Positions 16,686 through 55,215 of a DNA stretch of 64,000 bases are shown here, in pieces (the stretch's first letter is position 1; every line of letters begins with the position of its first letter). Under the pieces are notes generated by a model, which saw only the letters and a list, made by a program, of their open reading frames with translations, ran no database searches and had not been told where the DNA came from. The position numbers and the translations under genes are program-made. The stretch covers positions 13,637,229 through 13,701,228 of the forward strand of contig OZ022585.1 of assembly GCA_963669155.1 (NCBI GenBank). Direction: 5' to 3'. Origin of the DNA: Arbacia lixula. Taxonomy: Eukaryota > Echinodermata > Echinoidea > Arbacioida > Arbaciidae.

Positions 16686-17673
16686 TAATTCATTTATTGA
16701 CGTTTTATTTCAACAGGTTAGCCCTTTCATTTAAACAACCGATCTATCAAGGGACCCTGCATACAATAAAAAAAACAATAAAATGCACAACAAAAACCAA
16801 TGAACACATGAACTAATTCATCAATCAATGTCAGAGAGATCTAACAACTACTTCATGAAAAATCAAACAAAAGCAAAACAAAACAGAACCCTTTTGCTCA
16901 GAGTAGAAACTTAGAAGCGATCAGTAAGTGATAATAGTTTAAATTGCCTTTTAAAAGAGCTAATTGAAGTGGTATTTCTAAGTCAAAGTGGGGATTGTTC
17001 CATGTCTTCGAACCGACATATTGAAAAAAACCTTTTCATGCAGTTTTTGTTTGGCTTAAGTACCGATAACAGAATATCGATGGCATATCTTGTAAATATA
17101 TGCGGAGTTCTAAAAATTGCCATACCCTTCAAATATTGCGGTGAAAGTCCATTTATAACTTTAAAAATATACAAATAAAATTAATAATTAACTCTTTGTA
17201 AAACAGTCTGCCAATTTAGCGGTTTCAACATTAACAAGTGAGGCGTAAGAAAATCCATATTCAGAATCAGGCGAGCATAACGATTTTGAAGACGCTGTAC
17301 GTTCAAAATTAAAAACTTACCTGAGGTTCCCTTAGAGTCAAGCCATAATCAACGTGTGGAAGAAATAAACCATTATATAGCAGAATCAAAACTTGCTTTG
17401 GTAAATATTCCTTAATTTCTCTAAAATACCCAATAGTTTTAGCTAGCTTTGCACATACCGATTCAATATGTTTATCAAACTTAAAAGTATTATCAAGTAT
17501 GATCCCTAAATACTTAAATTGATTTTACCTGTCCAAAAATATCCTTCTCAATAATATCCGCTCAAGCACAATTTGCTTATTGTGTACTTTTTGGTGTGTG
17601 CCAAACATCATAACTTTACATTTGCTCGTATTTAACCGTAAATAATTTTTATGTACCCATTGTATGATTCTAT

Positions 17674-17889
17674 TCAATTCAGTTTGCAATTTCGATTGAA
17701 CAAGTAATCGCGACCTTTACAAAATAGGGCATCGTCATCAGCACAGAGACTTAATTTAGTTTCATCAGAATATAACATATCACACATGTCATTTGTAAAG
17801 ACAGCAAACAAAAATGGACCCCAAATTGACCCCTGTGGGATACCCATTTTTACATTTCGAAAGCTTGATAGTTTTCCATTGTAGCACAC
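17674..17889 (-). pseudogene. LINE reverse-transcriptase catalytic region
   Basis: This frame contains the RT block GIPQGSIWGPFLFAVFTNDM and the catalytic-like CADDDALF. In active enzymes the motif is usually YADD or FADD. It is part of the decayed LINE at 16690-19600, and the reading frame breaks on both sides. Confidence 0.8.
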
Positions 17890-18242
17890 ACACAGACTTC
17901 TGTCCGTTAAGTCATTAGTGAACCAGGCTAACTCGGAACCACAATACCATACATTTCTAATTTATTCAATAGTATGCAATGATTTACTGAATCCAATGCA
18001 TCAAGAAATAGACTTCCAATTATATACCCTTTATCGATATTAATCAATAAATAGTCATTAATATCAATCAATGCCGTTGTAGTTGAATGTAAAGGACGAA
18101 GTCCGGATCATTGGTTGTAAAATAATAATGGTACAGTTGAGCAGCCTTTTCTCGGTTTTTTTTTCCATTAAATGACACAAAACAAAAATAAACCTTTAGT
18201 TACTAGTTTGATCCTTTTCACCAAATTTTTAATGGGGCTGAC

Positions 18243-18680
18243 TTAAGCTCGTTTCCAATCTTTTGCAATGAATCCTGAGATAAGTGTTGCAATGGAAATA
18301 TGGGTCAAAGGTTTACTAATAAATGGCGCTGCTTCTTTCAATAAACGGGGGTGGATATTTTCAAGACCACTTGACATACGCACTGACAGATTGTGGAGCT
18401 CCTTAGCAACAAAGTCTTCCGTAATCGTCTCAAATTGAGTGGTAGAGTCAGTCACTCGATCTGTGTTATCACGCTCAACTGCATTGTCATTGTTATCCTG
18501 GACAAAGTATTCATTGAAGGCATTAGCTTCGTCAGTGTCTCCCGTTAATAACCCAGATTCAGAACGTAACCCTGTACAATTTGCGGACTTAGTCTGGCTT
18601 GACAAATTTTTCAAAGTTTTCCATGTACGATTTGTATCACCAATACTATTTTCAAATAATTCAATGTAATAATGCTCCAT
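18243..18680 (-). pseudogene. LINE linker region between endonuclease and RT
   Basis: The frame encodes a segment ending in SGLENIHPRLLKEAAPFISKPL, which matches the pre-RT region common to CR1/Jockey elements (SGxDxIxxxLLK...). It belongs to the LINE spanning 16690-19600 and is broken from its neighbours by frameshifts. Confidence 0.75.
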
Positions 18681-18778
18681 TCACCCGTTTAGGTACTGAC
18701 ACAAAAAGTGCGTACTTATCACACAATTTTATGAAGGCATCATTGAAGTGTTTCCACAAATTGTTAACATTATGTGTA

Positions 18779-19273
18779 TTATAAAAAATCTTGCCCGAAA
18801 ACGGATCCACCTTCCCTTCCGAAGTCAGGAATATTAAACCGTCTAAAGCTCCTAAATTCGCTTATTTGTGGTTTGCATTGAACTTTGAACTTATGCATAT
18901 TGATAAAAACAAGTGAACGATCACTAACTCCGATTGGGATTAATCCGGATTTTATATTTTCTTTAAATGCTGGAACAAAAACCAAGTCAATGCATGTGTC
19001 ACTATTTGGCGTCACACGAGTTGGACGATCAATCAATTGCTTGAAATTAGACATACACGTAGTACATAATAAATTCAGTTGCTGATGTAAAAGATTGTCA
19101 GTCAATACATTAAAATTCAAATCATCAGTAAGAACAATATTATGTGTCTCACTATAAACATTTTCAACACTACTTTCCAATTTACGAAAAAAATCAACAT
19201 GGGAGCTTGGTGCACGATAGACTGGGCCAATAAGCCAAGATCTTGAGTTTGGTATTATAATTTTTACCCACAT
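18779..19273 (-). pseudogene. LINE endonuclease (APE-type) C-terminal part
   Basis: The frame contains GPVYRAPSSHVDFF, LTDDLNFNVLTDN (the GDFN-like block, with D in place of G) and RPTRVTPNSDTCIDLVFV, all typical of APE-like endonucleases of non-LTR elements. It is a fragment, in a different frame from its N-terminal part. Confidence 0.8.
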
Positions 19274-19759
19274 GATTTCAAAATCTTCACAGTCAAGATC
19301 TCTGCGGCGCGAATAGCCTTAATGTAGCAACCTATTCCACCTCCTTGACAATCTCTATCTCTTCTTTATAACGAATAACCATTTATTGCTATAAAATTTA
19401 GACAAACAACCATGTTTCTGACATTGTAAATACATCAATCGGGTAAGTAGACAAAAAAGTTGAAATGTGATCCACCTTCTTTCTATGTTTGTCAAGCTTC
19501 GTACATTGATATGTGATATCTTAAATACTTTATTTATCTTTTCATCGAGTACGTCATAAACTTTAGTGGACCTATCATATTCCTAACCGGATCCTAACCG
19601 GATCTTGCGATGGTAATGCATCAGTCCAATTGTGTTTTCTGCATTAACTAGTATAACCGCACCATAAAATGGTAATTTGCTGTACTATACATACTGGACA
19701 TTGCCACCCCCTAAAATGTTCATTTTCGTCATATGCTTCATTAGATATATCAACACATT

Positions 19760-24800: not shown

Positions 24801-27800
24801 GGTATGTGATCTCTGTTTATTCTTTCGTCGTTCAAACACCTCCCCCCCCCCCCCCTCCATCCCCACAGCCTGATTAGGATAACTGCTGCGAATATGAACT
24901 TTGGGGCTTCTAGACAGGGGAATGTTTTACTTTCCCTTATACTGTTCATACTGAAGCTATGACTTTTAGATATCATACGCATTGTTATTAGATGATATTA
25001 TACGTGCAGAGCTAAAACTAAAGTTGTTTCATCTCTGTTTAAATTCAGGTGCCATTTTGTCCAACCTCGCAAAGCGCTTTCATTCTTTCTCTGTTTCTCC
25101 CTCAGTGGTGTGGTCAAGTATCAAACAAACTTGGATGAGCACGACCCCAATGAGTGCATGGTGAGTGAGGAAGCGTTTGACGCCTGCATGGATGTGCCTC
25201 CGCAATTCACAGGAACACCAGGCTCGGTGAGTTTACATGTAACACACCTGGGTACCTGTCACAAAGAGCTACAAGTAATCTATTGTTAATCCTTGTGAAT
25301 TGATCTGTTGTTATCCTTATCACAAAGAACCTGTGGTCATTATGAATCATAACTTACTATTGACATACATGTACATGCAAACACTTGGACTAGCAATAGC
25401 AATAGCAATAGCAACTTGCAAATGATTATAAAGTTACATGGAAGAATTGATCATCCGACCGATTGATAGATTAACTAGTCAGTCAATTGATTAGTTAACC
25501 CATTTACTAAAAGAACCGAGTATTCACGGTTCCCAAGTGTCCTAACCGGGAACCAAACTTGATTCCCAGAAATGTAGCAAATTTTTTTTTTTTTCCGTTA
25601 TATATGTTGCTGGTCTTATACACTAGTACTCTAGATTGAATACAGACATGACTGCAAAGAAAAATATGCGTGCATGGTGCATCATGAGAACGCTTGTCCC
25701 TCTAGGAGGTAGTGAGAATTGATTAATGTATCATATCAACGACTTCCGTCATATCTTTGCAGAGCTGGAAGTGGTGCGTAGCCCCACTTTGTATCTACTT
25801 CCTGGAAAGATTGCTGAGAATGGCTAGGACTTGGGCTGATGTCACAATAGTACAAGTAAGTTCAATGAAAACTTGGAAGCCTGTTGCATTTACAATTCTT
25901 GTAACGTACCATCAAAAGTAACCATCATGATAGCTGCCAGTAAGTAAGTTACAATAGTTGAATACATACATGCAACAGTCCTTGGTAAGTAAAACAGTTT
26001 TCCACTATAACGTTGACTTCTGAAGTATTAGGTAATGTATGAAATATGCATGTAATAAAGCAACATATGTATATTCCAGTATAAAATAGCATTTTGGAGA
26101 TACATGATATTGCACTTCATTAATTAATATTGTGCTCAGCTCTATTGTGCTATACATATGCATTTGTTGAATACCGAAATCCATGTCCGTGAATTGGTGT
26201 TTTTACCATTTAGTTTATTAAATGTGCTAACAATTTGTTTTAGGTGGTCCAGCATCCCTCCAATGTGATTGAGCTGAGGATGAAAAAGCAGGGTTTCTCC
26301 ATGCTGCCAGGGCAGTACATCTTCCTCAAGTGCTCTCCCCTCTCCAAGGTCCAGTGGCACCCCTTCACCCTCACATCAGTAAGTCACTCCTTGTCAGTCT
26401 TTTTTCTCCACCCCCTTCCACCATTATCTTCTTCATCTTTTCCCCCCATGCTTTTCTTTCACCCAGCCCCCCCCCCCTCGACATTTTACGCAAGAAATTT
26501 GTAATGCGAAAAGATCGCGCCGCGGCGTTTCATGACTTTTTCCTTCTAGTCTCACGCAACTTTTAAGACCAAATTTGTGACGCGGGGGTACGCGGTTCCA
26601 AAGTTATGTAACATTTTGTATGTGCTTGTCAGACCAAAAATTGCTCAAAAACGTGATTTCATTTACAAATCCAATGCAAATTCTGTATCTAGCCAAAATT
26701 CATAAATGTATCATTATTTTTATTTTTACTGATGAAAAGCAATAGATTTCATGCTATTTATAACTGAAATAGTATTGGCAACGATTTCCGTTGAAAAAAC
26801 AATGAAAAACATAAAGTCGAAAAAACAAAGAAATACATAAGAAATTAAAAAACAATGAAATACATAGGAAAAACTTTGATATTGCCATTTTTTAAAATCC
26901 TTATTTGATAATAATCCTAAGAAGAGTGCCTGGACTGAAATCTAGCAGTTTTGGTGCTATATTGAAAGATTTACAACCAAATTATGATTTTATGCATTTA
27001 ATTAGGATAATTAATTAATTAAAAATAAATTTCAATAAGTTTGGTGTAATTGACAATTGAATTATGGAGATTACATCATCGGTGACGTACGTGCCAATTT
27101 TCTTCGTGATCGCGCGATCAATTGCCAAGATCTTAGGGGGGGCTGTTTTTGCCCCCCCCCCCCCCCCCCCGCGCTATGTGATTTCAAAATAGCCCAGGCT
27201 ATATAGGGTTAACCCTCACATCCTGTAAGTCCCTCTGTTCTCTGTCTTCTCTCTCCACCCCCTTCCAGCATAATCTGCTCTTTCTTCTTGCCTTACTCCT
27301 CAGACCTTCACCCTCGCATCAGTAAGTCCCTTTTCTGTCTTTTTTCTCCAGCCCCTTCCCCTGTTATCTTCTCAATCTCCCCCCCCCCCCCCCCTGCCTC
27401 CTTTCTCCCCTCTGCCTCCTTTCTCCAACCCCTCCCACCATAATATTCCTTTTTTGGTTGCCTTGCTCCTCCTTCACCATCACATCAGTAAGTCACTTCT
27501 GTTGTCTCTTTTTCTCCAACTCCTTCCACCATAATCTTCTCTTTCTTGTTCTCTTACTCCTCCTCCACCCTCACATCAGCAAGTCCCTTCTCTTTCTTTT
27601 CTCCAACCCTTTCCACCATTATCTTCTCTTTCTTGTTGGACTACTCCTCCTTCACCCTCACATCAGTCAGCTCCTTCTCTGTCTTCTTCCCCCAACCCTC
27701 TTTCCCCTTTTCCGTCATCTTCTTTTCTTGCTCCTCCCTCCCTCCCCCTGGCTTAACCCTATCTAGCCCGGGAGGGGGGGGAGCAAAAACAGCCCCCCCT

Positions 27801-30800
27801 CGACATTTTTCGTGATAAATTTGTAGTGCGAAAAGATCACGCCGCCACGTTTCATGACTTTTTTCCTCCAAGTCTCAATCAACTTTTAAGACCAAATTTG
27901 CGATACGGAGGTACGTGGTTCCGAAGTTTAACATTTTGTACGTGCATGTCAGGCCCAAAATTGCTCAAAAACGTAATTTCATGTACAAATCCAATGCAAA
28001 TTCTGTATCTAGCCAAATTTCATAAATGTATAATTATTTTTATTTTTTACTGATAAAAAAACAATAGATTTTCATGTTATTTATGACTGAAATACTGTTG
28101 CCAATGATTTCCATCAAAAAAAAAATTAAAAACAAAGTCGAAAAAACAAAGAAATACATAAGAAAGTTCAAAAAACAATAAAATACATAAGAAAAAAATT
28201 GATATTGCCATTTCTTAAAATCCTAATTTGATAATAATCCCAAGAAGAGTGTCCGGAATGAAATCCAGCAGTTTGGGGGCTATATTTAGAGATTTACAAC
28301 CAAATCATGATTTTATGCATTTAATTAGCATAATTAATTAATTAAAAATAAATTTGAATAATTTTGGTGCAATTGACAATTGAATTGTGGAGATTACGTC
28401 ATTGGTGACGTACGTGCTAATTTTCGTCGGCCCTTGGGAACAACAGTGTCTCAATCACTGACAAGGTTACTAGGTGAATAAAACTATAGATAAACAAATA
28501 AATAATATGCCTCACAGGCTCCAGAAGAGGACTACTTTTCACTTCACATCCGGAGGGTTGGAGACTGGACAGATGCTCTGGCTATCAAGATGGGGGCTGA
28601 CCAGCCAGAGCCGCTACCCATCACACAGCTGCCCAGGTGGGTGTTGGGAAAGGTCTGGGGAGGGGGAGGGGTGGAGGAGAGGTTGAAGGGTAGAGGAGAA
28701 GGGGAATGGGGGAGGGGGGATGACTAGATGGATGCTTTAGCCGTTCAGATGGGGGCTGACCAGCTAGAGCTACTTACCATTACCCAGCTGCTCAGGTGGG
28801 TTTTGGGAAGGGTCTGGGAAGTTGTGGGAGAGAGGGGAGGGGGGCGGGGGGGCGGGGGCTGGGAAGGCGGGGGGAGCGTGTGAAGGAGAGGGAGTGGGGG
28901 TGTAGAGGAGAGGGGGGAGGGGGGGGGATGACTGGATGGATTATTGAACTCGTCAAACGATACCAGCTACTCGTAATTTTTGTTCTCAATAAAAAATTTC
29001 TTCTCTGAAATTTGTGTAAAATCTAAGACATTCGGTGATAGAGCCTTTGCAAATACGCCACCCAAATTATGGAATGACCTCCCCCAAGGCATTAGATCAT
29101 TGACAGACTTCGATCAATTTAAATTAAGACTAAAGACACAATCTGTTTGATAATTATTAGTTATTTTCAAATTCTCACATAATCAATTTTTACTTTCACA
29201 TGCATAGAGACTATTTGAATGGTATTATGCATCTCTAAGATTTGAATATTATTATTATTATTACCCATTACCCAGCTGCCCAGATGGGTGTTGGAAAGGG
29301 TCTGGGAGGGGTGGGGGGGAGGGGTGCGGGGGGGGGGGGGGGTAGAGAAGTGTAGAGGAGAGGGAGATAGCATGAGATGGAGGATAGAAACACTTCTTGT
29401 GTGTCCTCTCTCAGCACCACAGCTGCATGATATAAAATCAATGTGCTTTTGCTAGATTCGCATTTGATTTCTGTAAGAGATAGACACAAATCTTTTCCTA
29501 GTGTGGAGAGTGGTAGGGGTGATTGTACCGATGACTCGAGTTGCTTGGGTTGCGGATGGGAATGGGTTACTCAAAGGCCATATACTGTACTGGAAACCTT
29601 CAAAAGGTGATCATGAGCAATCTTCTTGCCAATGGTCTTAAATTCATGTATTATCCATTTTAGAAACTTGCTGAAAGTTATTTGCCCTCGAATGATCCAC
29701 ATTTTCAGTTATTAGTGATTAAATTACAGATCCTCAAAATGTTCGGGCCGAACAATTTCAGGATTTGTGATTTAATCACTAATTACTCAACATGTGGATC
29801 ATTTGAGGGCAAATAGCTTTCAGCAAGTTTCTAAAATGGACAATACATGAATTTAAGACCATTGGTAAGAAGATTGCTCATGATCACCTTTTTGAAGATT
29901 TTTTGTCTTCCCAGTACAGTATATTCCCTTTAATGGTGAAATAATCCACAAATGACCCATGAAGAATTACCCCCTGTAATTTCCCCTCTTGCTCCCATTC
30001 ACAGAGTGCAAGTGGATGGCCCATTTGGGACGTCTTGCACAGACATCTTTGACTACGACGTTGTGATGTGTGTTGGCGCGGGCATTGGTGTTACCCCATA
30101 TGCTTCTGCACTCAAATCCATATGGTAAGTTTAGCTAGTCGCATGTCTCCTCAATATTTTGTGGGAATTGGGTTGAAAGAGGAGACAATGTGTTACAGTT
30201 TTGACAGGATTTGTTAGAAAAATCAAGGCTAACATGTTAGTTGTTTTCATGGATGTTGAAATTTTAAATGAAGAAAGATTAGACAAATGAGATAGAAGAG
30301 GAGGAGGACATAAAGAATGTGTGAAATGGTGAGAAGAACAAAAGAAAATGGGAGACTGCAGAGAAGTATAAAGCAAAGAACCAGAAGAACACAAAACAAC
30401 AATATGAAAAGAAATACAATGAAGGAAAAAGTGAAGGGGCCAAAGAAGAAAGACATGCAGAGTCGATGAGTAGGAAAAGATGAAAAAGAAGCTAAAAGAA
30501 AATAGAGAGAGTTGAAGGAAAAATTTTAGTGGATGGAGGAGAAGGAAAAAGAGGTGCAAGTAGAGAAGGAGCTTAGGATTGGATTATGGATGCATACATC
30601 AGATAATTAAGAGCCAAATGTAATATCTGCCATTTTCATTTGAGCTTTGTTGAGAAAACAGCAGCTCTGTCTTATTTGAAATTGTATATAGGCAACCACA
30701 GAACAACTGGGATATTTTCCTGGAGGAGAATTTACATCAAGCCGTTTAGATCTCTAATAACATTGTTTTATGATGCGACTTCAATTATAATATATTTATT

Positions 30801-33800
30801 GACAATATGTTGTTGAAATTCAGCCACAGACTAGAGGCTGGAGATGAATCCCTGCACCTGCGGAAGATGTACTTCTACTGGATCTGCCGTGACACAAAGG
30901 CCTTTGAGTGGTTCGTGGATCTACTCTCGGCGTCTGAAGATACCTTGCACAGAATTGGAAGACAAGACCTCCTCGTCTACTCCATCTACCTCACAAGGGG
31001 ATGGGACTATGCACAGGTAGGGCCATTTCTTCCTTCTCAGAAATGTGATTAATGTTTTCTTGTGACCCCCAGGCTAAGAACATCAACATCTAACTGGTTA
31101 GAGGGATATTACCTTGTTATGTTGAAATCTCACTGTACCCATGCTTGTTATAATGGTAGTAGAAACTGTATAATGATCTTTTATCCCCAGGCTAAGAACA
31201 TCAACATCTAACTGGTTAGAGGAGGACAATGCACTGAATAAATACTACTAGACTGCTCACTGGGATTGTTTTTCATGAAGTTATGTTGGATGATGGATGT
31301 AAAGACATTTTACAATGTGCCCGGAACAACAATAGAAGCAGATGTACATGGTTAAATATTCTTTCACTACCTTCTCAGAGCTGAATAGCTGTTGCCATAT
31401 TTGCATGATAATAGATTGAAATGTGGTGGACTATCTAATGAATTCCCATTTTACTCTGTGAGTTTGGAAATTGACCTGAGGTCATTTACTAAAAGCAATA
31501 ATCTGCTCATGCGCAATTGCAATTATGAAATGGCTTATCCATGGTCGTTGTAACAGGAGTAAAGATTGCATAATGATTCTGCCTTTTATCCCAGACTTAG
31601 AACATCTACATGCTAGAGGACAGATAAGGTGCGTCTTCATTAGCCTGATCAGACGAAATAGCGAGCTATTTTCCTGATCCGGGGAACTAGCCTGAAGTTG
31701 CAATCGCGTCTTCATTAGCTCGAAACTCGGGATACGTAAGCTCGAGCTCGGGTTGCATAAATTATCCCGAGTGTCGCACATACCAGCAGTGCGCGACAGG
31801 AATAGGCCATTACCACATGTTTTCGGTTGTGAGCTCGCATTCACGCACGTGTAAAAACCTATTACGTAAACAATGCCTCGTGGGCGCTGATGCATGCCGG
31901 GATCGAGAAATTTTCAGGCTAATGAAGACGCTCCGAACTAGCTCGTGCTATTTTGCGAACTAGCTCGAGCTAGCTCCATCTAGCCCAAGATTTCTTGGGA
32001 AATTTTCTCGACCAAATAGCTCGCTATTTTGCCTGATCTGGCTAATGAAGACGCAAATAGCTAGCTAGTTCGTGATCTAGCTAGCTAGCCGGATCAGAAC
32101 AAGCTCGTTATTTTGCCCAGCTCGAGCTAATGAAGACGCCCCTATAGATTGATACAGTGACTTAGCAGTGACTCTGTACATTAGAGATAGTGGAATAGAC
32201 TTGAGATCAATTCAGATCAATTGCAATTCTTTATAAGACGGGGCCTTGGTCTACTCAAGTTCAGAAAGCCATTCTTTTCAGAGACGAGAACCAGGCCGAT
32301 ATTGCAATCTCAATTTATCCATGGTCATTAACATAGGAGTACTGTAAAAGTGGAAATTTTCGCGGGATTAATTTTTCGCGCTCGGCGGAGTAAAATGAAC
32401 TTCGCGTGTTTTTAATTTCGCGGGTTGTCCAGCCCTTAGGACGATTGATTCACTCAGCTTACCACTGCCACGCCAGTGCAAGCCAGGCCGCAGCAATAGC
32501 ATGATGATGTTGTTGGAGCGCTATACATAGGCTTGCGTACGGGATGCATGATGCATCAAAGCAAGCACGCATACAAAGTGTGCCCATATGAACTTCGTTT
32601 AGGTGCAAATATATTTGCGCGATTTTATTTTCGCGCCAAACGCACGCCGCGCGAAATGCGCAAAAATTTCCACACCGCGAAAATTTCCACTTTTACAGTA
32701 CACTGTATAATGATTCTGCCTTTTCACCCCCCAGGCTAAGAACATCTACATGCAGGAGGACAGAGAAATCGATGCAGTGACTGGGCTGAGGCAGAAGACG
32801 CATTATGGCCGGCCTATGTGGGACTCAAACTTCACCTACATCGCAGAGGAAAACCAAGGGTAAGTGCATTGGCCATTTTTTTTTTTTTTTTTGCCAGGTT
32901 TCCACACCGCATATAAGTGAAAGGCATCCCAAAATGCACCACCCAGGGACATATTGGCTGTTTTTTTGCCTGTTTTCCACACAGTATATAGGGGCAAGTC
33001 GTCACACAATGCATCGTGCAGGGACATATTGGCTGGTATTTTGCCAGTTCTCCACACAGTATATAGGGGCAAGTCGTCGCACAATGCATCACGCAGGGAC
33101 ATATTGGCTAGTATTTTGTCAGTTTTCCACACAGTATATAGGGGAAAGACATCGCACAATGCATCACGCAGGGACATATTGGCTGGTATTTTGTCAGTTT
33201 TCCACACAGTATATAGGGGAAAGACGTCGCACAATGCATCACGCAGGGACATATTGGCTGGTATTTTGTCAGTTTTCCACACAGTATATGGGGGGAAAGT
33301 CGTCGCACAATGCATCACGCAGGGACATATTGGCTAGTATTTTGCCAGTTGTCCACACAGTATATAGGGGCAAGTCGTTGCACAATGCATCACGCAGGGA
33401 CATATTGGCTGGTATTTTGTCAGTTTTCCACACAGTATACAGGGGAAAGTTGTCGCACATTGCATCACGCAGGGACATACATGTATTGGCTAGTATTTTG
33501 CCAGTTGTCCACACAGTATATAGGGGCAAGTCGTCGCACAATGCATCACGCAGGGACATATTGGCTGTTTTTTTGCCAGTTCTCCACACAGTATATAGGG
33601 GCAAGTCGTCGCACAATGCATCATGCAGGGACATATTGGCTGTTTTTTTGCCAGTTCTCCACACAGTATATAGGGGCAAGTCGTTGCACAATGCACCACG
33701 CAGGGACATTTGGATTTTCTTGCAGTCTTCCTGTCTCATACACTAATACACTACACTGGAAGTGAGTATGACTGCAAGAAAAGTCAGGATGTTGCTTGCC

Positions 33801-42936: not shown

Positions 42937-45900
42937 CTGGGGAAAGACAAAAGTTCAAGTGTGAGTCATCACTTAGGAGCAGACAAGGAGTGGATGAACA
43001 GGTGGATGGAAGTGAAGAGGGGTGCATAAGTGGAGTGATATGTAATATCACAGATGGACTGATGGGTGGAATATATGGGAGAATGAACAGATGGACGGAT
43101 AGATCAAAGAACAGATAATAAAACCAAAGTCTTACCTTCTCTTGATCCTGCGGAGTGGGTTGCGTCTGAGACAGGTTGATATTCTGTGCAAGCTGAGATA
43201 TGTTCTGTAGGGAGTATCAAAATGAGAGCAGATATTCAAATGTTACATAAAAGAATGACTTTTGGGGTGTAAATATCTTTCTCATCACCCCCTTTCCTGC
43301 AGAACATTCTGTTATGCCATATTTTTCAAAATCACTCTTGAAATCTATGCTATCAATATAAATTGTCCTTTGGCACCATCACACACATAAATCCTTCAGA
43401 GCAACATCATATCTTGCACAGAAAGGGCTAAGATCTATTTGTGACATTTCATCAAGTTCCTGGATCCTGAGCTCTTTAGGCATATGTACTGGTTAAAGGC
43501 ATCACAATTATGTTTATTGGAGGCTGACTGCTAGGGCACAGAAGTGCATTACCACAGAGTCTGGATGGACTCTTCAAAGGCATCCACTGTCAAGAAATGT
43601 ATGGAGATGAAAATATTGAGTCACTGAGTAATAAAGGATTAAGGGGAATCATACGTGTACATTTCTGGGCCCAATCTTATAAAGTGTTGCAATTGATATA
43701 AATTAATCACAAGTCCGAAATCATCTCTAATGTACAGCGTTATAATTGATATCAATCAAAAGTCAAGTTGCGATCAATTGCAATTATTTATGTGACAGGG
43801 TCCTGTTCTGGTTTTGAAAAGAACCTAACCCAGACAAAACGCTGCTATATAGGATTACGTGTCCTGAGGGTGAAAAAATACACACATGGCACATAAACAG
43901 TTGATGACTCACACTGGCTGCACTGACGGGGGACCTGTCCGGCCCCCTGGGGTCTCCCATCCTTGGATCACCTGCTCCAGTGGGCATACCTCCACCACCA
44001 CCACCAGAAGGCATTCCCCCACTTCCTCCTCCTCCTCCAGGCCTCATTCCTGCTGGCCCCACCATGCCGTGGGAGGGCTCCCCACGCTCAAAGCCCCCTG
44101 CTCCACCTCCTCCTACTCCACCTCTTGGGTCTGGTCCTCGCCGGGCATCATGACCCTCCTGGGGGCCTCCTGCCCCTCCCATACGTGGCCCGGGCCCCAT
44201 GCCCCCTCGGTTCATCGCCATATCTGGAAAAATTGCAAATATGAACATAATTTTGCTTTATTAATAGCTTAATCATGAAGTATTGTACTGTAGTGCAACA
44301 ATACAGTCTTACATTTATTTCTTTTTGTATACATGAATCAAGCAATTCTTAGCTGGGGCTGGAGCCCAGGTAACTAGCAATCCTCATCATGGGAGATAAC
44401 AGCTTTCCTCAGTGAAGTTTGAAGTGCACTACTATCATTCAGACTCAATTGGCAACTGGAATCTTTTTACTGGGTGATAAATTTATGGTTCAATGTGAAA
44501 TCTAATTGTCAATATGGCTCTGATATGAGTCAATTTGAAGTTGATATGGGAGGGGAATTCTCATACAATGTTAATCTATAAACTGTGGTATAAACACAAC
44601 TTTATATTCCAGACCCTAACATAGGATAAACTGGCTCCAATTTTTCTCACCTTGATTCATCATATTTGGGCTCATTCCAGGGCCAGCTCCTGGCCCTCCG
44701 CCTGGTCCCATCCGTCCCTGGTCCATTCCGCTGTGCATCATGCCCTGAGGCCCAGATGGGCCCCTGCCTCGGATCATTTCAGGCCCTCCTCCTCCTCCTG
44801 CCATTTGGCCCATGCCGCGGTTCATACCGCCCATCCCAGGACTCATCTGGCGCGGCCCCTGTCCCATCCCTGGACCGCCCATTCCCCCACCCCGGTTCAT
44901 ATCCTGCGGGCCCATCCCACCTGGCCCCATCCCACCCCGGCCCATCTCTGGTCCTGGGCCCATCCCACCCCGGCCTCCAATGTCCCCTGGCCCCATTCCC
45001 CTGTTCATATCCCCCGGCCCCATGCCGCGATTCATATCCCCCGGGCCCATACCACGCTTCATATCGCCTGGTCCCATCCCACGGTTCATTTCTCCCATTC
45101 CTCCATGCATCATTTCCCCACGGCCCATTCCTCTCATGGGACCACCCCTGCCACCCATGTCCCCTGGGCCCATACCTTGTGGGCCCATACCTTGTGGGCC
45201 CATACCCCCCTGTGGGCCCATGCCTCTCTGGGGTCCCATTCCCCTCTGGTTCATCCCACCGCCCGGCCCCATGTGGTGGTCTGGACCGGGACCAGAGTCA
45301 TGTGGCCCGCCATCGCGCCCAGGCCCACCCATCCCCATCATGGGCCCTCCTGGCTGAGGGCCTCCTGGTCCCCCCTGGTTCATCTCTGGAGGAATGAGAG
45401 GCTGAGGGGCATCTGTCTGTCTGTGCAGAAGGGTCTGGTCAAAGAAACAGTAAATGTTATGATTAACTAGAGCAATTTGACTGCCACGCAGTCGATAAAT
45501 ATGCCTCCGCCTCTTTGCTAGCTCTATTTAGATTTGCTCTCTGAAAATCTGTATGTTTGGTGGGCAATGTACCATTGAATTCCTATGTGAAAGGAAAATA
45601 TATTCTGTTTTTCCATGTTTAGCCAAGTTTGGGAATTTTCATTAACCTTTGATCTCTTACTTCTTTGACTTCCAATCTAACCAGTGTGTCTAAATCCATG
45701 CTTGTATCAAATTTTGGCAAAGTTCATTGACCTTTGAGCTCTGAACTTTCAGGGATTTTATCAAATATGCCATCAGTCTATCTCCATAATATGATTCATC
45801 TCTGTACCATGTCTGGTTAGAATTGCATAATATAATTCGATTTGGATTTACATGTATTGTGACAAATATCAATTTTGGGGGAATTTTTAGCGAATTTTTG

Positions 45901-48900
45901 ACCTTTGACCTCTCATCTTTCAGGAATTTTACCCAAACTTTTACCTGTCTACCTCGACGAAGTGATACATCTCTGTACAATATTTGGTTTGGTTTGTAGC
46001 ATGGAATCTATGATAATAAACCATGAAATTGGAGCCATTCCTTCATAATCAAACAGACACGCATGTGTACCATTACTCATTGGACATCATCAGCAAAAAT
46101 AAGACTTTGCACTCTCCCTTACCATGGCAACGTTTGGATCAACAATGCGCATGACGACCTGGGCTTGGAGCAATGCATAGGCCAGCTGAGGATTCTGAAG
46201 CAGCATGTTGCGAGCCTCGACAGGGTTGTTTTGAATCACAATCTATGGCACAGAAGCACAGAATACATGTCGATATATCATTGTACACCATGGCCAACTT
46301 TACGGATTCATACCTTATTAGGCGTTTGGTCATAATTCCCAATTTCCCATTTTGCTACATTGATATATAGTATGTCAAATGCAACACTCAAATATTAGTC
46401 TAAAAAAACATCATATTATACTATTAATAATTTCGTTTTTTTTTATTTTTTTTTATCTCATTTGATCTCACATAAACAGTGTACAATTCAATGTGGGCCT
46501 TCCTCAACATATAACAACCATGGGTTCCATTGTTGTTTGCTCTGAAAAAGACTTGCTGAGCCTGACCATTGCGGCTTACGCAAATGTATGGGCTGATACA
46601 GACATTCATTGCCTTGTGTTTTTTAAAGAGAGATTACAACAAAGACTTGCAACCTAAATAATTTTTTTTTAGATGTCTAACTACAACGGAATGATAAAGC
46701 CCGTTCAGCAAAATGGCATGAATGATGATAGCTTCTGAGTCACTATTTGGACATTTAACCTCTTTGCTCCAACATTTTTAGGCCAGCGCTCACAATATAA
46801 AACAAGGGAGGTGCTCATAATATGTGCATACATACAGTGTGTGTCACAATTTAACTACTTATTGCACACATCAACCGCATTTTAGCACAAGCTGACAATG
46901 ATATGTTTCTGAGTGGGACACTTGGGAACAAGACCCTGTTCCCACTGAAACTGGGTTAAGTTCAAGATTGGTCAGGACAACAATAGCAATATAAATGTTC
47001 TGCTCTCTTCCTGGTTATGACATTGAAATCATATAAGGAAGCTTTAAATACCTATTAATATTGAAAGAGCAACAAGAAAAATTGTACTTTTGACTTTGCC
47101 AGGAACTTTAAACAAGTGACAAATCACTCAAATTTAAGTTTTTGGTACTCTTAGATTGTAACCTGCATTCCCTACTTACAGACAAAATCTGGAGAAGAAA
47201 TATTCATCCTGTTGCTAGATATTTAATCTAGCGACATGTGGTGTTGCACTGATGCAAATGCAATTAACAGATAAATTTTTGCTAATTTCCAAGAAAATTT
47301 CTTTGGCTAGTTGCTTCCTTTTGTCAGAGTAGGACATTATCACTCAATCCATGATTGTTGGGTTTATGACATCCAGCACGTAGGTGTACATGTCGTACCT
47401 TCATCTGCTTCATGACCTCGTACATCTGTTCTGGCGGCAGGCTGGCCACGGCTCTAGAGATGGCTTCAGGTGCTTCCTGGGGTGCTACAGGCTCACCGTA
47501 CGGAGACTTCAAGTGTGAACACAGACATTCATATGAGTACATTACAGGGAGATAAATACATTTAATTGCAAGGGCTACTTATCAAGCCTAATGTCTTGAA
47601 GCAGATACTTGTTTTACCATTTTATGATGTTATTAATGCACCTTGTTTTGTTTGTTTGAACTTTAGCAAAATTGTTATAAAAAGAAGAGAAAAAAAGAAG
47701 AAAAAGCCTGATGTCATGAAATGAATGCCTGTGTTCATTTTACCCTATTATGAGAACAAACCTTTTCACAGCGGCTCTCTTGTTTTTGCTATTGTTTGCA
47801 CTGCTGTGGCTAAAGCAAGAAATCTTTTCATTGTTGTGACAAAAGCTACACACCCATTGCACACAAGCTTAGGGATATTGTACTTTTCAAGTGTGAACAG
47901 TCATTGGTATCATACATGCACAAGCACAGGCCCAAGCTTAGAGAGAGTGTACATGTGAACAGAGTTTCGATTACAACAGCATTAGTTGTACCTGTGCTAG
48001 TACAGACACAAGTGTTGGGAGACTGTAAGTGTGAACGCAGCCACTGACATTGTACCTGTACTAGCACACTTAATAATTATGACCCTGCCTGTCTCATTAT
48101 TATCATCAATGTACATAAATTAACAGTAGAATTTGTGTCTTTGTCTCCAATAATTGCTAGTCTGAACATAATTCAACCTTTCTCGGTTCATCATTTGAGG
48201 CACAATTTACATGTACAATGCATCTGTGTTAGAATCAGTATCTGGAAAATTAGGCAAAATGTCAAGTAATTTAGTGAATTTGTGACTAGAATGTATACCG
48301 TACTCACCTCAGGTGGTGGTTGGCTCTGCTGTAGAGTCACTGCAATAAGGACAGACATGATAACTTTGTCACTGTGAAAGTTTCTTCATGGTGATTTCAT
48401 GTCAGGACCACAATCTACCTGTAACTCATTGTAGTGCTTCTGAGACTCAAAAGCAAAATGTTTAAATCCTCTAAGTAGGCTTTTTGCTTCCCTAAACACT
48501 TCAATTTGGGGGTTTATAAGGTTTGATCACCTTACAGATAAATTAATGTACAAACAGATTGCATCTTACAGTTTTAATTTGTATACTGGCAATAGTAGTT
48601 TTAGATGGCGAAGACTTACTGCCCAATGCACTGCATACATGTAGTTTCAGAGGCACCAAGTACATGTAAGTGTAGTCTATAGTTGTTTGATACCAGCACA
48701 AAGGGGGGGGGGGGGGGGGGGGGGGGGGAGGGGGGGGGATTGAAAAACCTTATTATAATCTCTTTCACTGGGCCTCAACCCTGTTGAGGGACTATATGAT
48801 ATGCTGCTCATTATAGAATTTGGGGCTGTAGGCTATGATCTCAAGTATCAAGAGCAGGTCAACAAATGGCTCAAATTACAAAAAAATGACTAATAAACCT

Positions 48901-51100
48901 GGTTACAAAGTTTCCTGCTCAGAAACGGCAACCCTGAGTACTCATCCATTGAATCGTATAGACCTCATGATATTAATGTATGCTGCTATGTGTGCAATTG
49001 GTAACTCAATCGCTACCATTTACGTTCAGGCGGTTGGTCTAAAAATCTCATATAAAACAGGTCAATTCTCCATACTGCGGACATGTAGGAAAGAGCCATT
49101 CCATAATGCACCTTGCAGCAACATCAACATTTTTCTTGCGATCATGACTGCTTCCAGTCCCATACATTAGTACACCAGACCGGACGCAGACGTGACTGCA
49201 AACAAAATCTTAATTTGGCTCCATCCACTTCAAAAAATGGAAATTTGAGATGTAATCCTAATTTTTATAAAAGTAATAGTGGTTCATGATATAAATCATT
49301 TTAAATGCATAGTACATCCTATTTAGTTTATCTAAGCTCGTAAAGATCTGTTGTTGTTTTTTTATTGTGTACAAGGCTTCATGGCACAGCGTTAAGATGG
49401 AGTCTTTTGGAGAATTCCCCTACAGGTATTAAAGACAGCCAGTCCCTTTTTCAGATCACCACAAAACCATCGAAACATTGGCAAAACATATAGGGAAGTA
49501 TTAGCAAGGTCTATATTCACGATTTGAAACTGATACGTGGTGTAAAATTCAAATAATGCACGTAAACAACGTATGATTAATAGTCTTTACCTCAGGCTCT
49601 TAGCAGTTTGTGTTGAAATATCTGCTTTATTGATTAATCTGTTTATTAAATTATGAAACGCATTATGAAAAAAAATGTTCTATGGAAGGAATCATCTGCA
49701 AAGTTTGGCAGTTACTCATAAAATTAGGATTTCACACATGCATAATAACCACATAGATACTGTAACAAAGACTAATACTTTTTTCGTGGTACGAAAAAAG
49801 TCGGTTTGAAATTTAACGGCTGAAATTTTTTACATATACAGAAAGCTTCAACATGCTATATTCTTAGAAATGGTCTTGAATCACACTTTCTTCAATTTAC
49901 GATCGTGATAGACGATTTCAAATTTTAAGCTTGCAAAAGGGACGGACAATCTTTAAGCAACTGTGCAATATTGTATTGTCCAGTTTTTCTGCCTGTTTTT
50001 TTTTTCTGTATACTCGGTTTTTCTATCTTGCTTTTTGGTTACATTATCTTGATCTTTTTCATTATTTGTAAATATTGTGATTTTTCTTGATTTTGGTTGT
50101 ATGATTCAATAAAACAGAAAATATAAAAAAAAAATCTTAATGTGGCTGTGCAGTGCATCATGGGACAACTTTTCCTCATGCGCTACCAAGAATTCATTCC
50201 CCAAACTTACTCTTGAGCTCCTCCCTGTTCTTCTCACTAGTGGCATTGTCTACTCTGAGGCTGCGCCCACTCAGCTCATAGCCGTTGAGGTTGCGCATGG
50301 CAGACAGCGCAGTCTCCTGGTCCTGGTACTCGCAGAAGCCATAGCCCTTGGGTTTGCCCGAGTCCCGGTCAAAGACCAGCCGGAAACTGATGACCGGCCC
50401 CACCTCCGAGAAGATATCCTTGAGCTTCTCCTCCGTCACCTCGTAGGGGATGTTCCCCACTGCAGGTCAAGTAATGGAAGGAGAAATGTGCACAGAGACG
50501 AGTCGAGATGATGAATTTTAGTTGGGAGATCTTCGTAATATTTAGCAGTGATCACTAAAATTAATTGTTGGTGAAATAAGGAAATGTGCCAGGCAATTGT
50601 AGATCTAGATTCTATTTGAACAAACATCAAAGCATGATTTCTCACTCAAAGACAAGTCAAGTTTCTCACCGATAGTATTCCATTACATAAACAGTTCTTC
50701 AAGTTCAAAGACAAACATGACAAAGCCAAAGCCAAAGGGCAGTTTTATTGATATGCAAATGAAATTTCATAAGTTGATCATGAATTCATTCAACATGTTC
50801 AAAAGAACACAAGGGGCCGGTTTGGAGCTCCCGCTTGTAACAAGTCAATCACACTTTTGCATTCATCACCATGCACCAGGGCATGCCAGACAAGATCAAG
50901 ACCTTTCATGCTTTGCCAGGCAGGCTTTGCTAGGCTTTGCCTTTCCCTGTTTGCAGCCGATGTTGCCCTTCTGACATTATTCACATCATGGCATTTCCAA
51001 ATCTACTGGTGGCACCCTAAACTCCTGTGTAATGCTTAAAACTTTTGACTGATTGATACTTACCAAAGACAGAGCGTATAGATCTATCTGCGGCAGACAT
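42808..51100 (-). CDS. CSTF2: Cleavage stimulation factor subunit 2 (CstF-64), nine exons, complete
   Basis: Exons from the start are 51064-51100, 50211-50459, 48308-48339, 47399-47506, 46123-46242, 44651-45434, 43913-44223, 43136-43204 and 42808-42936. They total 1839 bp, exactly 612 residues plus stop. CstF-64 binds the U/GU-rich element downstream of the poly(A) site and, with CstF-77 and CstF-50, fixes the cleavage site in the nucleus. Residues about 10-90 are the RRM (RNP2 VFVGNI, RNP1 KGYGFCEY). Residues about 107-182 are the hinge that binds CstF-77 or symplekin (SPYGEP ... [14 protein letters not shown] ... [19 protein letters not shown]). Residues about 190-545 are a Gly/Met/Pro-rich low-complexity region. 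Residues about 563-612 are the C-terminal three-helix CSTF_C domain ([19 protein letters not shown]). The MEARA/G repeats of vertebrates are absent; MGPGDMNRG-type repeats take their place. Start chosen at [19 protein letters not shown]. Confidence 0.95.
43136..43204 (-). CDS. CSTF2: CSTF2 exon 8
   Basis: Encodes [20 protein letters not shown] then QEK, leading into the C-terminal domain; human has QNQVTPQDHEK. Phase 0 at both ends. Confidence 0.92.
43665..43802. repeat. Small foldback repeat in CSTF2 intron 7
   Basis: GGGCCCAATCTTATAAAGTG and TTGCAATTGAT are mirrored by ATCAATTGCAATT and GTGACAGGGTCC. A similar half lies at 32210-32250 (GATCAATTGCAATTCTTTAT). Confidence 0.55.
43913..44223 (-). 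CDS. CSTF2: CSTF2 exon 7 (Gly-rich)
   Basis: Encodes [20 protein letters not shown] and on to [15 protein letters not shown]. The GDPRG and RGPDPRGG words recall the RDPRG repeats of vertebrate CSTF2. Acceptor TTCCAG, donor GTGAGT. Confidence 0.9.
44651..45434 (-). CDS. CSTF2: CSTF2 exon 6 (Gly/Met/Pro-rich)
   Basis: Begins [20 protein letters not shown], joining the conserved LHRQT to a long low-complexity region. It contains tandem nine-residue repeats RGMGPGDMN (about four) and MGPQG repeats. The plus-strand open frames over this exon are shadows. Confidence 0.93.
45480..46010. repeat. Dispersed repeat (TGACCTTTGAC type), copy 2, in CSTF2 intron 5
   Basis: It has the same words as 37740-38235: TTTGACCTTTGACCTCTCAT, TTTCAGGAATTTTACC and CGAAGTGATACATCTCTGTA. 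Two or three internal sub-copies are visible. Class unknown. Confidence 0.5.
46123..46242 (-). CDS. CSTF2: CSTF2 exon 5 (hinge, second part)
   Basis: Encodes [20 protein letters not shown], then [20 protein letters not shown]. Nearly invariant in animals. Phase 0 at both ends. Confidence 0.96.
47399..47506 (-). CDS. CSTF2: CSTF2 exon 4 (hinge, first part)
   Basis: Encodes [20 protein letters not shown] and [16 protein letters not shown], close to human [20 protein letters not shown]. Donor GTACGA. Confidence 0.95.
48308..48339 (-). CDS. CSTF2: CSTF2 exon 3 (32-bp microexon)
   Basis: Acceptor TTGCAG, donor GTGAGT. It completes a Met codon and encodes [10 protein letters not shown]. Its 32-bp length is needed to keep the frame between exons 2 and 4, which supports it. 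Confidence 0.82.
48703..48739. repeat. Poly-G tract in CSTF2 intron 2
   Basis: About 37 bases of G with a single A. Lies between exons 2 and 3. Confidence 0.85.
50211..50459 (-). CDS. CSTF2: CSTF2 exon 2 (RRM)
   Basis: Encodes [38 protein letters not shown] and [14 protein letters not shown], almost the whole RRM. It ends in phase 1 (A/GTAAGT). Confidence 0.97.
51064..51100 (-). CDS. CSTF2: CSTF2 exon 1
   Basis: Encodes [12 protein letters not shown] plus the first base of a Val codon, donor GTAAGT. The human protein has RSLRSVFVGNIPYEATEE here, so the split V and start fit. Confidence 0.9.
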
Positions 51101-51470: not shown

Positions 51471-51474
51471 AAAT

Positions 51475-51735
51475 GCCGCAGAAGAGCGCAATGATTTACG
51501 GTAAAAAGATGTATCTGTTAGTTACACTGTTCTGCCCTGAATCGAAATGCCGCAGAAGAGCGCAATGATTTACGGTAAAAAGATGTATCTGTTAATTACA
51601 CTGTTTTGCCCTGAATCCATATGCCGCAGAAGAGCGCAATGATTTACGGTAAAAAGATGTATCTTTGATTACGCTGTTCTGCCCTGAATCGAGTGAGCGC
51701 ACACAGCTACGTGATAAATGGCAAAACGATGTATC
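51475..51735. repeat. 74-bp tandem repeat (GGTAAAAAGATGTATCTG units)
   Basis: GGTAAAAAGATGTATCTG recurs at 51500, 51574 and 51648 with the block CTGCCCTGAATCNNNATGCC and GCCGCAGAAGAGCGCAATGA between. Looser copies of the GTATCTG word are at 51272, 51446, 51732 and 51805. The same word is the core of the palindromic satellite at 54760-55215. Confidence 0.8.
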
Positions 51736-54756: not shown

Positions 54757-55215
54757 GAATGTTTCTGCAGATACACCCTTTTACCGTGATTTGCCCATGA
54801 AAATTAATAATGTATCTGTAGATATATCATTTTACCGTGATTTGACAATGATCACCAAATGTATTTGCAGATACATCATTTTGCCGTGAATCGACCGTAC
54901 AAAACCAATCGATGTATCTGCAGATACATCATTTTGCCATGAATCGGCCATAGAAACCAATCTATGTATCTGCAGATACATCATTTTGCCATGAATCGAT
55001 CATTGAAACCAATCGATGTATCTGCAGATACATCATTTAGCCAAATTATCGAACTGTCCAGATTAGTCCTCCGTTAACGGCAAAACACTGTATCTGCAGA
55101 TACATCATTTTGCCATGAATCGATCATAGAAACCAATCGATGTATCGGCAGATACATCGTTTTGCCGTTAACGGAGGACTAATCTGGACAGTTCGATTAT
55201 TTGGCTAAATGGTGT
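54757..55215. repeat. 52-bp palindromic tandem repeat inside a larger hairpin
   Basis: GATGTATCTGCAGATACATC, a perfect 20-bp palindrome, recurs with slight change about every 52 bp (54865, 54918, 54970, 55022, then 55090 and 55145), spaced by ATTTTGCCATGAATCG and AAACCAATC. The last two units lie between long inverted arms: 55035-55085 (GCCAAATTATCGAACTGTCC, CCTCCGTTAACGGCAAAAC) and 55160-55208. A lone flanking word GCAGATACAGTGTTTTGCC is at 55403. Confidence 0.85.

Follow-up and report, generated by a model that had tools for sequence, protein, structure and literature searches.

An intron of an oxidase gene in the sea urchin Arbacia lixula holds several copies of the splice junction at which it begins. 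Do these spare junctions serve the gene, or are they a by-product of local duplication? The window, a stretch of 64,000 nucleotides of contig OZ022585.1 (assembly GCA_963669155.1), had been described beforehand from its letters alone. That preliminary description suggested that the copies could buffer the authentic donor, let transcripts end the exon at several sites, or act as a U1 decoy that slows splicing of an immune oxidase, and its null explanation was a minisatellite that had arisen at the junction and was neutral.

Results

The source exon and the array in its intron

The exon from which the copies derive, hereafter the source exon, is the eighth of the 13 exons found for this gene (26244-26378, plus strand, 45 codons); the first coding exon is absent from these 13, and the donor of the exon running from 24722 to about 24797 is placed approximately. 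Its end reads CCTTCACCCTCACATCA followed by GTAAGT, the authentic donor (26379-26384, plus strand), which was identified by direct reading and after which the following exon stays in frame. Residues 2-45 of its translation match the heavy chain of cytochrome b-245 (8kei/8gz3) with an E value of about 9e-15, and the translation also matches Pfam FAD_binding_8; the exon encodes the FAD-domain stretch ending in HPFTLTS, of which HPFT is presumably the part that binds FAD. The next exon (28518-28636, plus strand) is in frame and takes up the match to the heavy chain at residue 345. Judged by the heavy-chain match of the source exon, the gene that carries the array is a NOX2-type oxidase, in agreement with the NOX identity first proposed for it. 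Two other loci of the window lie on the minus strand: ORF fragments at 17309-19318 resemble by eye a decayed retrotransposon, one fragment compared with Pfam giving no match, and a gene at 43784-50466 encodes an RRM protein with long Gly/Met/Pro-rich repeats, which is CSTF2-like by eye (the RRM exon was tested).

The repeat unit joins 15-17 bases from the end of the source exon to the donor GTAAGT and, after it, to 54-69 bases of intron rich in pyrimidines. When the exon with the start of its intron was compared with the window by blastn, five copies of the unit were located between 27209 and 27727, all on the plus strand, with 77-88% identity to the source and E values of 2e-19 to 8e-11. GTAAGT is intact in unit 1 (27209-27279, donor at 27225, 81.7% identity to the source), unit 2 (27305-27387, donor at 27322, 82.6%) and unit 3 (27471-27540, donor at 27488, 87.5%); it has become GCAAGT at 27579 in unit 4 (27562-27627, 83.1%) and GTCAGC at 27666 in unit 5 (27649-27727, 76.8%). 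A donorless fragment of the unit, 29 nt long, lies on the same strand at 27420-27448 (86% identity, E 3e-4). The preliminary description had thus correctly reported that the exon end, the donor and the intron start recur in the exon's own intron, three times with an intact GTAAGT, and its positions are accurate within 2 bases.

Start-to-start distances of the five copies are 98, 166, 91 and 87, and TRF reports an 87-bp unit across 27420-27698. A 23-mer made of the exon end and GTAAGT has five matches in the window with at most three mismatches, the source included, and none in 100 dinucleotide shuffles; unit 1 is outside these matches, having one extra base and further changes. A 239-bp query from the array gave four matches in the genome assembly, all of them at this locus (simple repeats were skipped and two candidates scored).

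The array sits between two end-truncated copies, in the same orientation, of one TTAA-flanked element, which we take to be a piggyBac-like MITE and which shows the TTAA target duplication and CCCTA...TAGGG ends of such elements. This setting had escaped the preliminary description, as had the copying at two further junctions of the gene described below. Copy A occupies 26467-27212 (plus strand, left edge approximate, left terminal repeat missing) and copy B, of the same family, 27753-28429 (plus strand, right end missing). The family is multicopy in the A. lixula genome (40 of 1661 first-look candidates were scored), and among the 14 copies inspected, of 29 aligned, the left TTAA was found in all 14 and the right TTAA in 13. 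Exact 27-mer scans for the element in viral contigs and genome contigs gave no match. The right TTAA of copy A falls among the exon-derived bases of unit 1, suggesting that the array is older than this insertion, which leaves the nearest decoy donor 846 bases past the real one.

Copies A and B differ from each other by a p-distance of 0.104, which is more than separates either of them from each of the 29 other copies compared (0.063-0.076 for A, 0.078-0.093 for B), indicating that they inserted independently and did not both come from one tandem duplication of 1.3 kb. Private changes number 27 in A and 37 in B; six are shared, five of which occur in at least 5 of the 29. This divergence also bears on the reading of the array as an assembly artefact or a haplotype collapse. 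The published A. lixula assembly is described, in the portion cited, as highly heterozygous (3.47 and 4.40%, PMC11310861), which speaks for such a reading, but the identity of the units to their source, their indel differences and the diverged element in between point to old divergence and make an artefact extremely unlikely.

Sequence tests of function

The preliminary description had raised the question whether the donor part of the unit is better conserved than the rest. This was not the case, as 3 of the 6 columns of the donor hexamer are variable among the five copies, against 33 of 65 elsewhere in the unit (p = 1.0). When exonic and donor columns were taken together, 8 of 23 were variable, against 28 of 48 intronic ones (p = 0.08, five copies); slippage of the pyrimidine tract can explain this lower variability, and weak constraint is also possible.

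By binding U1, as a decoy or as a buffer for the authentic donor, the spare donors might delay or regulate how the oxidase transcript is spliced. The three copies of GTAAGT are calculated to pair with U1 at -4.9 to -5.1 kcal/mol, about as strongly as the real donor at -5.1 kcal/mol, which favours such a role. They pair no better than the real donor, however, and the two degraded copies, at -1.9 and -1.2 kcal/mol, are much weaker. The equal variability of the donor bases and the rest of the unit, the distance of the nearest decoy, which lies beyond a transposable element, a NOX2 paralog that has no array, and similar copies in genes for myosin, not an immune oxidase (both described below), likewise speak against it. 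The proposed buffer or decoy consequently found no support, and we consider it very unlikely.

The idea that transcripts end the exon at several sites fared no better, since a source exon extended to any of the decoys meets a stop at 26502, within the transposon and before the first decoy. A copy could also close a separate alternative or poison exon placed right after HPFT, either a microexon or one of several longer, frame-shifting pseudo-exons. The acceptor scan found an acceptor-like tract before unit 2, ending in CTCAG at 27303, and from this tract to the donor of unit 2 the sequence alone would allow a hypothetical in-frame microexon of 18 nt (27304-27321, plus strand, encoding TFTLAS). 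The tract before 27304 (CTTACTCCTCAG) has 14 pyrimidines in 16 bases, compared with 8 in 16 at the real acceptor of the intron, and an exon of 18 nt preserves the frame. Against this, the microexon requires a CAGA insertion found in one unit only, exons as short as 18 nt usually need special enhancers, and it is the only one of the ten acceptor-donor pairs listed that is in frame and stop-free, the other nine being frame-shifted or carrying a stop. An alternative or poison exon at this place is, in our judgement, a long shot.

Recursive splice sites, or ratchet points, have acceptor and donor juxtaposed as AG/GT. This arrangement is absent from the units that keep GTAAGT, which read CATCAGTAAGT, where acceptor and donor have one G in common, or CATCCTGTAAGT. 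Base pairing between the array, which is C-rich, and a block of G-rich sequence in the intron that follows did not stand out, 4 of 60 mononucleotide shuffles being equally strong, and a search of Rfam returned nothing at the gathering score.

Age of the intron

Mapped onto human NOX2, the intron that holds the array separates residue 344 from residue 345. The part of PMC5303869 relied on here gives exon 9 of human CYBB as c.898-1151 and assigns mutations of residue 338 and of residue 361 alike to that exon, from which it follows that human CYBB has no intron at this site. This speaks for the view that a tandem duplication created the intron and that the array is what remains of it, an origin of introns that a paper on amphioxus genes proposes in the sections cited (PMC3087553). 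However, the NOX2 paralog in the A. lixula genome (C10:1129370), in which the counterpart of the source exon is 73% identical, is interrupted by an intron at this same codon and in the same phase, and no array and no junction copies were detected inside it. An intron common to both genes predates their split; its age thus exceeds that of the array and speaks against its birth from the array. Junction copies are also present in the intron after it, whose position, judged by exon length, would correspond to that of human intron 9, and this too counts against an origin of the intron in the array, which appears highly improbable. Two Nox2-like genes have also been reported in S. purpuratus, in the passage cited of PMC1940245.

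Copied junctions elsewhere in the gene and the genome

Two further junctions of the NOX gene are copied, the donor of the next exon twice and the acceptor of exon 32735 (32735-32859, plus strand, identified by its translation) three times. The end of the next exon recurs with its donor and intron start at 28711-28821 (plus strand, 78% over 111 nt, E 1e-21), where the strong donor CAG/GTGGGT is intact, and at 29262-29322 (plus strand, 84% over 63 nt, E 1e-13), where CAG/ATGGGT marks a lost donor. The acceptor junction is found upstream of its exon, on the plus strand, at 31066-31104 and 31183-31222, two copies that are identical over 38 nt and both below the 50-bit criterion given in the following paragraph, and at 31567-31627 (83% over 64 nt, 65 bits). 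Intron 12 has, close behind a further NOX exon, a 75-bp minisatellite of 10.9 copies at 32889-33713; it was considered as a fourth junction array and rejected, as 759 of 2000 junction shuffles score as high. Further minisatellites of the window lie at 51471-51692 (74 bp, 3 copies) and 54759-55043 (52 bp, 5.5 copies).

A junction was scored as spanned if a local direct repeat of at least 50 bits, at most 3.5 kb away, included at least 8 bases on each side of it. By this measure 3 of 25 NOX junctions are spanned, compared with 75 of 1178 positions sampled across the window, the three arrays excepted (p = 0.21). Of 19 myosin exon matches at other genomic sites, 4 have junction-spanning copies that pass the same threshold, two of acceptors and two of donors (L052 125-603; L053 3889-4071 and 1758-2180, reverse strand; L054 2123-2612). 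These 19 are drawn from 73 listed matches and lie in four stretches that were picked for match density before duplications were searched for; the four junctions were noticed by visual inspection and afterwards checked against the fixed criterion, which they pass. Two repeats, at L052 7686 and L054 1344, are entirely intronic and were left out of the count, and the other myosin exon matches have no overlapping repeat of at least 40 bits inside their own stretch. With two junctions assumed per exon, the myosin total is 38, and the NOX and myosin genes together have 7 of 63 junctions spanned, compared with 190 of 2670 positions in 15 genomic loci (p = 0.22). Junctions are thus neither clearly favoured nor avoided by duplication, a moderate excess being possible at these numbers.

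Among five NOX relatives in the genome, none of 34 exon matches has copies that include exon sequence, exon edges here being the edges of tblastn matches, so that junctions a few bases outside could be missed. Three of the 34 have a local repeat in the flank, none of which extends into the match. In the NOX2 paralog (C10:1114700-1144400, covered by L041, L050 and L051), local tandem repeats stop 6-9 bases before an exon match, so that they narrowly fall short of a junction array. Junction duplications occur, in this small sample, in two unrelated gene families of one genome.

Discussion

The name mirages was given to tandem duplications over exon/intron boundaries in amphioxus Adh3, and the globin genes BflGb6 and BflGb9 have them too, according to the sections cited of PMC3087553, and PMC3902484 describes, in the part used here, similar repeats in amphioxus PGBD5 and troponin C. 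We conclude that the NOX array is very probably a neutral mirage, a junction-spanning minisatellite that arose by local tandem duplication and was later interrupted by a transposon. What we observe directly in its favour are the copies, their decay, the transposon insertion, the other copied junctions of NOX and myosin genes, and a rate close to that of random positions. The null explanation of the preliminary description is accordingly the one favoured by the evidence from conservation, from the paralog and from the background rate. Three observations point the other way: the exonic and donor columns taken together vary somewhat less than the intronic ones, three intact donors persist, and the NOX gene is richer in copies than its five relatives.

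How such copies could be tolerated may be pictured as follows. A local tandem duplication would have included the last bases of the exon together with the donor and the first part of the intron, and so have left spare copies of the junction in the intron. The splicing machinery would pass them over if the exon is recognised by its own acceptor jointly with the nearest donor, and any transcript that did run on to a decoy would contain a stop codon and presumably be degraded, so that the copies would be tolerated and drift neutrally. Regular splicing would then be undisturbed by the array. A similar picture was drawn in amphioxus, where the Adh3 data and RT-PCR of the globins suggest, in the portion of PMC3087553 cited, that regular splicing is undisturbed.

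The comparison with amphioxus can be taken further. As presented in the passages cited of PMC3087553 and PMC3902484, mirages there are minisatellite-like units of 10-160 bp that lie over a 5' or 3' exon/intron boundary, and many but not all copies keep their splice signals. The NOX array likewise has a boundary-spanning unit, a period of 87 bp and partly kept splice signals (GTAAGT in three of five copies), and it is most likely, on these structural grounds, a member of the same class, now in an echinoid. It differs in its sea urchin host, in its interruption by a transposon and in the involvement of three junctions of one gene, and its units are more diverged than those of amphioxus BflGb6, for which 81-100% identity is given in the section cited of PMC3087553. 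In the openly licensed papers searched we found no report of mirages in echinoderms.

Two other systems show partial likeness, as far as the parts of the papers cited go. Minisatellite expansion across exon-intron boundaries has been described in paralogs from human segmental duplications, where the repeats are reported, with transcript support, to give rise to new introns or alternative splicing patterns (PMC2812944), whereas the NOX array shows no sign of being used. In the AGGT model of intron gain, too, tandem genomic duplication adds potential splice sites (PMC3443670); in contrast to that model, the NOX intron is older than its array and is common to the paralog.

A bolder reading is that junction duplication is frequent in the urchin genome and has built a usable 18-nt microexon or a regulated decoy beside the FAD-binding motif. 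We give it little credence; if it were true, a mutational by-product would tune an immune oxidase.

The occurrence of mirages in an echinoid, at three NOX junctions and in myosin genes, has wider implications. The amphioxus work, in the passages cited, discusses mirages as possibly general in cephalochordates (PMC3087553), and the present cases suggest that this by-product of local duplication may be common in other deuterostome genomes. Mirages would offer natural tests of how splicing chooses among near-identical donors in one transcript, and they would form a reserve of spare splice sites that may be a source of new exons or introns.
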